The translations under genes and the position numbers were made by a program. A stretch of DNA of 64,000 bases from the NCBI RefSeq assembly GCF_016861975.1, contig NZ_BOMB01000014.1, positions 1 to 64,000 of the forward strand, read 5' to 3'. Positions within the stretch are counted from its first letter, which is position 1, and each line of letters begins with the position of its first letter. Source of the DNA: Actinocatenispora rupis. GTDB taxonomy: Bacteria > Actinomycetota > Actinomycetes > Mycobacteriales > Micromonosporaceae. Of this stretch, positions 52,031 through 52,830 are shown one piece after another. Under the pieces are notes generated by a model. The model searched no databases and was not told the origin of the DNA. It saw nothing but the letters and a program-made list of their open reading frames with translations.

Positions 52031-52109
52031 AAAAAACGACCCATGGGTGCTTCCTCCCCTGCTGTCGCAGGAAAGGTCCGGGTGGACAAGTCCCGGAACC
52101 CATGGGTCG
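52031..52109 (-). terminator. Branched terminator of the small transcript
   Basis: Outer 12-bp stem, two inner hairpins of 6 and 5 bp, then TTTTTT at 52036-52031. Each outer arm also holds the self-complementary word ACCCATGGGT, so the pair could instead be a protein-binding site. Confidence 0.65.
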
Positions 52110-52214
52110 GATGGTTGTCTGGGATTCACCGGCCGCCACGGTCGTCGCCGCCCACGTGTTGGCGACGATGGCTGCCTCTGGTCGGTAAAAACCAGTCGTC
52201 CGACGTTCGGCGGC

Positions 52215-52253
52215 CTAGCGGACAACCACCTCGTGAGTCCGTTTACCACACAT
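52215..52253 (-). CDS. Possible 12-residue peptide (MCGKRTHEVVVR)
   Basis: An ATG preceded by AAAGGAGGTG, a near-perfect match to the 16S anti-Shine-Dalgarno, opens a 12-codon frame ending in TAG. The ribosome site is the strongest in the window, which makes translation likely although the peptide is too short to classify. It may be a leader or a regulator of the structured RNA that follows. Confidence 0.4.
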   Translation of the reverse strand: MCGKRTHEVVVR

Positions 52254-52286
52254 TGATCGGACCACCTCCTTTCCCACGTGGCTCGA

Positions 52287-52315
52287 ACAGTACTTCGCCG
52301 TCGCGGCGTCGCCAA
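52287..52315 (-). promoter_or_regulatory. Promoter of the small transcript
   Basis: Minus strand: TTGGCG (52315-52310), 17-base spacer, TACTGT (52292-52287). The predicted start is near 52280, 27 bases before the short reading frame. Confidence 0.55.
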
Positions 52316-52402
52316 GGTCTTTTCCCGCCGGTACCGGGACGGCGTCGGCCGTACGCGGGGGCAGCTTCGACCGTACGTAGAAGGATGGTCATACTCGGCG
52401 GT

Positions 52403-52666
52403 GTGAAGCTGTCTCGGTTGACGTCGACCCTGCTCGTCGCGTTCGGTGTGTGGTCGTGGGTGATCTGGCCGCGGTTCGCGGTGGCGATCTGGCAGGACGA
52501 CCGGTCCTGGCACGGCGGTTCGCCCACCTCGTTCCTCTGGGTACACGCGCTGATCGTGGTCGCGTCGGTGGTGTTCGGCACCGCCATCGGGGTGCTCGGG
52601 ATCCGCGGCTGGTGGGCCCGTCGTCCGGTCCGCGGAGACGGTGCCGGAGGCCCGCATTCGAGATAG
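52403..52666 (+). CDS. SCO4848-family membrane protein
   Basis: An 87-residue protein with two membrane helices around a Trp-rich loop: LTSTLLVAFGVWSWVIWPRF, WQDDRSWHGGSPTSFLWVH, then ASVVFGTAIGVLGIRGWWAR. This matches the actinobacterial SCO4848 family of unknown function. No ribosome site suits the GTG at 52403, but CATACT at 52390-52395 would place the transcript start right at it, so the message is probably leaderless. Confidence 0.82.
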   Translation: MKLSRLTSTLLVAFGVWSWVIWPRFAVAIWQDDRSWHGGSPTSFLWVHALIVVASVVFGTAIGVLGIRGWWARRPVRGDGAGGPHSR

Positions 52667-52830
52667 TCGGCTCCGATCGTCGCCCTCCGCCGTGGCCCTC
52701 GTCGTCCTGGCAGGTCACGGCTCGGTGTCGGGAGCCCCTCCGTGTCGGTACCAGCGGGTAGTGCCCGCTACGCTGCCCACCGGTGAAAGCCACCGCGACG
52801 GCGCGGTGGCTGCTGCGGAAGGAGACCGTC

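Follow-up and report, generated by a model that had tools for sequence, protein, structure and literature searches.

The locus and its features

The window, i.e., the whole 64,000-nt stretch of Actinocatenispora rupis DNA that was analysed, carries on its minus strand a member of the Rfam family RF02471 (Ms_IGR-5), positioned between a 2'-5' RNA ligase-like gene and a gene for a small unknown protein; a tRNA synthetase (W/Y class) and a Bmp lipoprotein gene are located farther out. The covariance-model match spans positions 52031–52279 and model positions 1–184 of 184, with a score of 69.9 bits against a cut-off of 45 (E 2.1e-13), and is the sole above-threshold Rfam match across the 64-kb window; further Rfam hits with scores below the cut-off were regarded as chance. 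An earlier note on this DNA had called the transcript an orphan, which is wrong in view of the full-length match, and had proposed a small RNA, which is borne out by the known family. The features of the locus are as follows.

52310–52315, minus strand: -35 element TTGGCG (sequence)
52287–52292, minus strand: -10 element TACTGT, with a 17-nt spacer to the -35 element (sequence)
52031–52279, minus strand: Ms_IGR-5 small RNA, RF02471 (covariance-model match; minimum-energy fold z -4.2)
52259–52272, minus strand: extended Shine-Dalgarno site AAAGGAGGTGGTCC (16S-tail duplex)
52215–52253, minus strand: 12-codon frame with stop, MCGKRTHEVVVR (fixed start and stop in relatives)
52236–52240, minus strand: predicted pseudoknot 5' strand GGACU, codons 5–6 (sequence comparison)
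52221–52230, minus strand: predicted P1 helix 5' strand GGUGGUUGUC, codons 8–11 (covariation, fold)
52120–52214, minus strand: variable hairpin region P2, ending in conserved unpaired GAAUCC (fold; GAAUCC-like consensus in relatives)
52110–52119, minus strand: predicted P1 helix 3' strand GACAACCAUC (covariation, fold)
52037–52109, minus strand: terminator hairpin, a 12-bp outer stem with two inner hairpins (fold; double changes in relatives)
52084–52088, minus strand: predicted pseudoknot 3' strand UGUCC, a loop segment of the first inner terminator hairpin (fold, sequence comparison)
52031–52036, minus strand: six T 3' of the terminator stem (sequence)

Divergent from the RNA, a small open reading frame at 52388–52668 on the plus strand has a hydrophobic-looking translation without a Pfam match.

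Distribution and earlier reports

The 7.8-Mb genome yielded a single Ms_IGR-5 copy. Matches were obtained in 50 of 61 relatives (47 above the cut-off) and in 249 of 394 genomes sampled from the class (247 above the cut-off), and none of 14 control genomes was matched. Named carriers in a pattern scan were mycobacteria, Streptomyces, Nocardia, Micromonospora, Cellulomonas and Parafrankia. Two genomes (G085 and G342) contain two matches each, the other hit-bearing genomes listed having one each. Families f28, f37 and f39, the first of which includes genomes of ~1.3 Mb, have no RF02471 match among the genomes listed, with 125 of the genomes without a match standing outside that list. The RNA seems to have been lost in some lineages.

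For comparison, loci were anchored on the motif GAGGTG (codons 8–9), and start and stop were read at fixed distances from it. A first set yielded 134 anchored loci out of 135, one (L124) being without the motif; a second set comprised 120 named loci retrieved with a pattern free of start and stop constraint, and species overlap between the two sets is possible. Counts out of 254 below refer to the anchored loci.

Ms_IGR-5 is reportedly an actinobacterial sRNA that was originally described by Li in 2013, first in M. smegmatis. Passages in later papers state that it is transcribed in S. lividans (PMC8079986), that it is a transcription unit in S. avermitilis (PMC8780764) and that it overlaps ncMSMEG15794c in M. 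smegmatis (PMC10454040). Section 9 of PMC4974804 mentions ribosome-protected reads for the homologues in M. abscessus and M. smegmatis, and cautions that protected reads arise from non-coding RNAs too. PMC5521070 describes a survey of sRNA-encoded peptides, S. coelicolor included, and PMC3765725 a screen of Streptomyces RNAs for conserved peptides; the 12-codon frame may already be listed in the supplementary tables of these two papers. The family itself is already known. In the literature searched, no published function of Ms_IGR-5 was found, nor any description of the near-invariant frame, the P1 helix, the pseudoknot or the full-tail ribosome site.

Genomic surroundings

As the earlier note had stated, no larger gene follows on the same strand; the nearest downstream gene in the window, a member of the 2'-5' RNA ligase superfamily, is on the opposite strand. 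Neighbours differ among families, and include a THAP4 heme-binding domain, aminotransferase class IV, an aminomethyltransferase fold, PNP oxidase, citrate synthase, NlpC/P60 and a metallo-beta-lactamase fold, among others. Conserved open reading frames are present at 120 of the 134 anchored loci of the first set; the nearest downstream one is convergent at 53, on the same strand at 34 and of uncalled orientation at 33, and no constant downstream gene was found across the 120.

A leader or attenuator of the neighbouring gene would have the layout seen here, a short frame followed by a terminator, and 11 of the 34 same-strand cases belong to one metallo-beta-lactamase-fold cluster, which is taken for RNase Z on the basis of its sequence. 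Neighbours change, however, and in the window, as at 53 of the 120 loci, the downstream gene is convergent; a cis-acting leader is therefore unlikely. Furthermore, the P1 and terminator strands are separate, and because they do not overlap, no choice between terminator and antiterminator is seen; the pseudoknot contacts the terminator loop and spares its stem. The leader explanation, rejected on the variety and orientation of the neighbours, is given a very low probability, which agrees with the view in the earlier note that this is not an ordinary leader.

Promoter and terminator

The promoter TTGGCG-N17-TACTGT proposed in the earlier note is present on the minus strand. Across the 254 loci, the best promoter-like pair most often has TTGCCG (55) or TTGTCG (47) as its -35 box, the spacer is 17 or 18 nt long in 237, and the called -10 box ends 16 or 17 nt upstream of GG[AG]GGTG in 228, all from a scan that is biased toward such boxes.

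The minimum-energy fold of the window copy (-119.1 kcal/mol; 1 of 200 shuffles equally good) contains the branched terminal stem followed by six T, as well as the CTGGT/ACCAG and GTCGCC/GGCGAC hairpins, all of which had been pointed out from the letters of the window. In the 12-bp terminal stem, 52109–52098 pairs with 52048–52037, and the outer stem displays double changes at most pairs among 56 relatives, i.e., the compensatory changes sought for this stem are present. Both the window fold and the covarying stem in the 56 relatives correspond to the terminal stem-loop of RF02471. The word ACCCATGGGT occurs twice in the window against 0.02 expected, one copy forming each arm of the terminator stem. 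The repeat noticed earlier is therefore real, but the alternative folds that had been tied to it are not indicated by conservation, and the letters of the word differ in most other families.

A full-length match to the 16S tail

The extended Shine-Dalgarno site AAAGGAGGTGGTCC has no other match in the window at up to two mismatches, with 0.17 expected by chance and at least one match to the pattern in 16 of 100 shuffles. Among 1763 overlapping Shine-Dalgarno-like 16-mers of the window, it forms the strongest duplex with the 16S tail (-28.9 kcal/mol, with the next distinct site at -22.5), which confirms an observation of the earlier note; the best value for 115 mechanically listed open reading frames of at least 250 aa is -23.0 kcal/mol, and their median is -13.2. 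Counting G-U, the site and its flanks pair without interruption over 17 positions of the 16S tail of its own genome. Contiguous pairing extends over 15–20 bases in 252 of the 254 loci and over 12 in the remaining two; part of each run, but not its length, follows from the anchor motif. With the 16S tail taken as identical in all genomes, the duplex energy is -23.1 kcal/mol or stronger in 254/254 loci (median -30.8).

Duplexes of this strength at every locus, together with the rank of the site in the window, speak for a decoy, i.e., an abundant RNA that would sequester 30S subunits through the full-length 16S-tail duplex, and whose short frame would let ribosomes leave. A decoy requires very high RNA abundance, however, and leaves the covarying P1 helix and the pseudoknot described below unexplained; we regard it as improbable.

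A 12-codon frame with fixed ends

The 12-codon frame noted earlier, from ATG at 52253 to TAG at 52215 on the minus strand, is present and is kept across the class. Exactly 21 nt upstream of the anchor, a start codon is found in 253/254 loci, and the stop lies exactly 15 nt downstream of the anchor in 253/254. The start place is TTG, ATG or GTG, with ATT/ATC in two loci, and never CTG. In the first set, ATG, GTG or TTG occupies the start place in 132 of 134 loci and ATT or ATC in the two others, and the stop is kept in 133 (TAG 126, TAA 6, TGA 1). Among the other upstream offsets examined (-33 to -9), the highest counts of start-like triplets in this set, 53 and 44 of 134, fall within the ribosome site, and no offset outside it exceeds 39 of 134. 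The second set gives the same picture, with a start in 119/120 (TTG 61, ATG 46, GTG 12) and a stop in 120/120 (TAG 109, TAA 8, TGA 3). One locus (L223) has AGA at the start place. At L087, TGG replaces the stop, and the frame continues to a TGA a few codons on; this is the sole lost stop among the 254. The unanchored locus L124 has 12 codons counted from ATG and 13 from a preceding TTG.

Two or more of ATG, GTG and TTG occur within 5 of 32 families, so exchange of the start codon has happened repeatedly. Spacing between ribosome site and start is variable (15–19 by the measure used in the first set), and that from start to codon 8 is constant, although it is counted from the anchor. No in-frame stop was found in codons 2–5 among 212 distinct sequences, whereas column shuffles contain 22 on average and at least 11, and the other two frames have stops in 18 and 119 of the 212. 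Codons 2–4 are AU-rich (32% G+C vs 69% in codons 5–12), as is expected of an open start region.

These data bear on a further explanation, namely that the RNA is a plain non-coding sRNA, with start and stop as accidental products of RNA conservation. Rfam files the family as an sRNA, and most letters of codons 5–11 are paired. This explanation does not account for a start place that is T, A or G and never C, or for a stop place that may be TAG, TAA or TGA; nor does it account for codons 2–4, which vary and are unpaired in the model, yet contain no in-frame stop. It is accordingly considered the remotest of the explanations discussed here.

The P1 helix

P1 is a predicted 10-bp helix in which codons 8–11 (GGUGGCUGYC) pair with GRCAGYCACC directly 5' of the terminator. 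The 3' strand was located by a sequence profile blind to pairing, and the sample consisted of 234 loci, i.e., the 254 minus four too short downstream and 16 with a weak 3' block, which gave 178 distinct sequences. In these, 1713 of 1780 P1 cells (96.2%) are paired, as compared with 27–61% for partners slid by 1–3, and 81 double-change cells are found at 6 of the 10 pairs (500 shuffles: mean 19, maximum 38), where part of the shuffle excess may stem from relatedness of the sequences. Taken pair by pair, P1 shows more than one Watson-Crick type within as many as five families, from which it follows that the changes recur. In 15 of the 16 weak-block loci (L118 excepted), the best complement of the frame end is still directly before the terminator hairpin, most of these complements being non-significant singly.

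A MAFFT alignment of 56 loci agrees with this result: P1 and the pseudoknot together beat 500/500 shuffles in cells paired, in double-change pairs and cells, and in covariation score, and further pair types show no clear excess in the same alignment (48/500 shuffles as high). P1 and the terminator stem are recovered by RNAalifold unaided, and P1 is part of the minimum-energy fold of the window copy. The covariation in favour of the predicted helix is thus strong.

The structure line of RF02471 instead pairs the ribosome site with the frame end. In this first Rfam helix, 95.5% and 96.4% of cells pair with 0 double changes, and it was rejected as a covariation-proven helix; it may be a transient alternative.

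In two loci of the genus of the window (L126 and L128), the distance from the anchor to the 3' block is 181 and 176 nt, respectively, vs 102 in the window and 93 in L058. There, an insertion bearing a GGGGGCGCAGCCCCC-type hairpin has enlarged P2, and P1 and the frame are intact.

A predicted pseudoknot

The second predicted interaction joins codons 5–6 with the terminator loop. In the window GGAC alone pairs, the fifth position being U-U. A search of the stretch returned GUCC at each of the 232 GGAC loci. The final base of codon 6 (6.3) forms a pair with the nucleotide just 5' of GUCC in 150 of 221 (shuffles 94 ± 7, 0/2000 as high). Position pairs involving codon 7.1 and codon 4.3 show no excess over shuffles, and codon 5.1 a slight excess at most (95/221 vs 86 ± 5; 82/2000 shuffles as high). 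With a structure-based call of the loop, codon 6.3 is paired in 145/210 and codon 5.1 in 90/210 (vs 80, shuffle maximum 95); this call also yields four GGAC loci with AUCC, a non-pairing combination that is supposed to reflect mis-called hairpins. Counted on the alignment, the pseudoknot has 26 double-change cells vs 11.5 ± 4.7, with 3 of 5 pairs invariant.

GGAU replaces GGAC in 7 of 394 genomes. The loop has AUCC in three of them (L256, L258 and L261), and GUCC, which still pairs via G-U, in the other four (L257, L259, L260 and L262); L257, L258 and L259 coincide with L098, L076 and L100, respectively. Because most positions never vary, the support comes mainly from one position and the three GGAU/AUCC loci. 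On comparison of the sequences, a pseudoknot of 4–5 bp between codons 5–6 and the terminator loop appears well supported.

An alternative local hairpin, in which GGAC would pair with the GUCC next to the ribosome site, can form in 56/56 aligned sequences, without double changes. Two of the GGAU loci, L261 and L262, have AUCC beside the ribosome site, and their ribosome site, GGTGATCC, complements 16S exactly, the usual G-U being absent; at these loci the two GUCC partners of GGAC may change in concert.

Residues drift where pairing permits

The codon columns display nonsynonymous drift alongside kept RNA words. GGAC spans codons 5–6, where codon 5 encodes R, W or G and codon 6 is free at its third position; codon 7 encodes R, C, S, G, L or H, and codon 12 R, S, G or H. 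Codons 10–12 vary at first and second positions, codons 2–4 are almost free, and Thr6, Glu8 and Val9 are nearly constant, the invariance of Glu8 and Val9 being imposed by the choice of anchor. No selection on residues of the kind expected for a functional peptide was found in these columns; residues drift where RNA pairing permits, which suggests that translation, and not the peptide, is what is kept.

The columns also speak against a dual-function RNA whose 12-residue peptide is itself functional, beside any RNA role. The frame is kept across the class, and Thr6, Glu8 and Val9 are nearly constant, although Glu8 and Val9 are fixed by the anchor. On the other hand, codons 5, 7 and 12 are variable and codons 2–4 almost unconstrained, and it is the letters engaged in P1 and the pseudoknot that are kept. 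A functional peptide is therefore unlikely, and the peptide is probably not the thing under selection. From the suggestion of a peptide-encoding dual-function RNA in the earlier note, the conserved frame is retained and the peptide is not.

A proposed switch worked by translation

Promoter-like boxes, a predicted terminator, a Shine-Dalgarno site for the 16S tail, a fixed 12-codon frame and the predicted P1 helix all emerge from the comparison of loci. The fixed frame is built from the letters of the fold itself, and an RNA switch worked by translation is therefore likelier than a peptide gene. Our preferred reading, to which we assign a probability of roughly 0.6, is that fold and translation would be mutually exclusive and that the RNA would be a switch set by translation and acting in trans; the peptide and the 30S decoy are its main rivals.

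We infer that the ribosome would open the fold in the following way. An initiating ribosome extends to about +15. Its front would thus meet the pseudoknot strand at +14 to +18, and a ribosome at the stop codon would cover the P1 strand. Every round of translation would then open the pseudoknot and P1 and free the stretch GAAUCC/CAGYCACC, and the RNA would close when there is no initiation. The RNA would be closed, half open or open, according to ribosome traffic, and would report initiation or free 30S subunits. The freed P1 strand with the preceding conserved GAAUCC is a candidate trans-acting seed, which is a guess, and the peptide would be a by-product.

Footprints were masked on the window copy in a crude calculation that is blind to pseudoknots. 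With the terminating footprint masked, P1 is gone at a cost of ~19 kcal/mol; with the initiating footprint masked, P1 stays and the cost is ~7 kcal/mol.

More tentatively, Ms_IGR-5 may be a ribosome-sensing RNA throughout the class, in which the full-length Shine-Dalgarno duplex would capture the 16S tail, the frame would only be traversed, and traversal would open P1 and the pseudoknot and so free the trans-acting strand. If this were true, a sensor and its output would be combined in one small RNA, with initiation of translation as the signal in place of a metabolite or peptide.

Comparison with known systems and implications

SgrS/SgrT and SR1/SR1P are dual-function sRNAs whose peptides, SgrT and SR1P, are functional. 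Both pairs are named as dual-function sRNAs in a passage of PMC11133741. The RNA of the window resembles them as a small RNA that also contains a translated frame, here a predicted one, but differs in that its residues are not kept outside the RNA constraint and in that the coding strand is part of the fold. In leader-peptide attenuators, movement of the ribosome over a short frame selects between folds. Ribosome movement on the short frame would likewise select between folds here; unlike in attenuators, there is no constant downstream gene, and the terminator does not compete with P1. Compared with the Rfam entry for Ms_IGR-5, the window copy shares the terminator hairpin and the ribosome-site consensus, whereas the entry describes an sRNA without a frame, and its structure line lacks both P1 and the pseudoknot.

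P1 and the pseudoknot suggest a corrected structure for RF02471. A near-invariant frame inside a fold made of its own coding letters offers a testable mechanism, and a family filed as non-coding seemingly keeps a short frame for the act of translation and not for the peptide.
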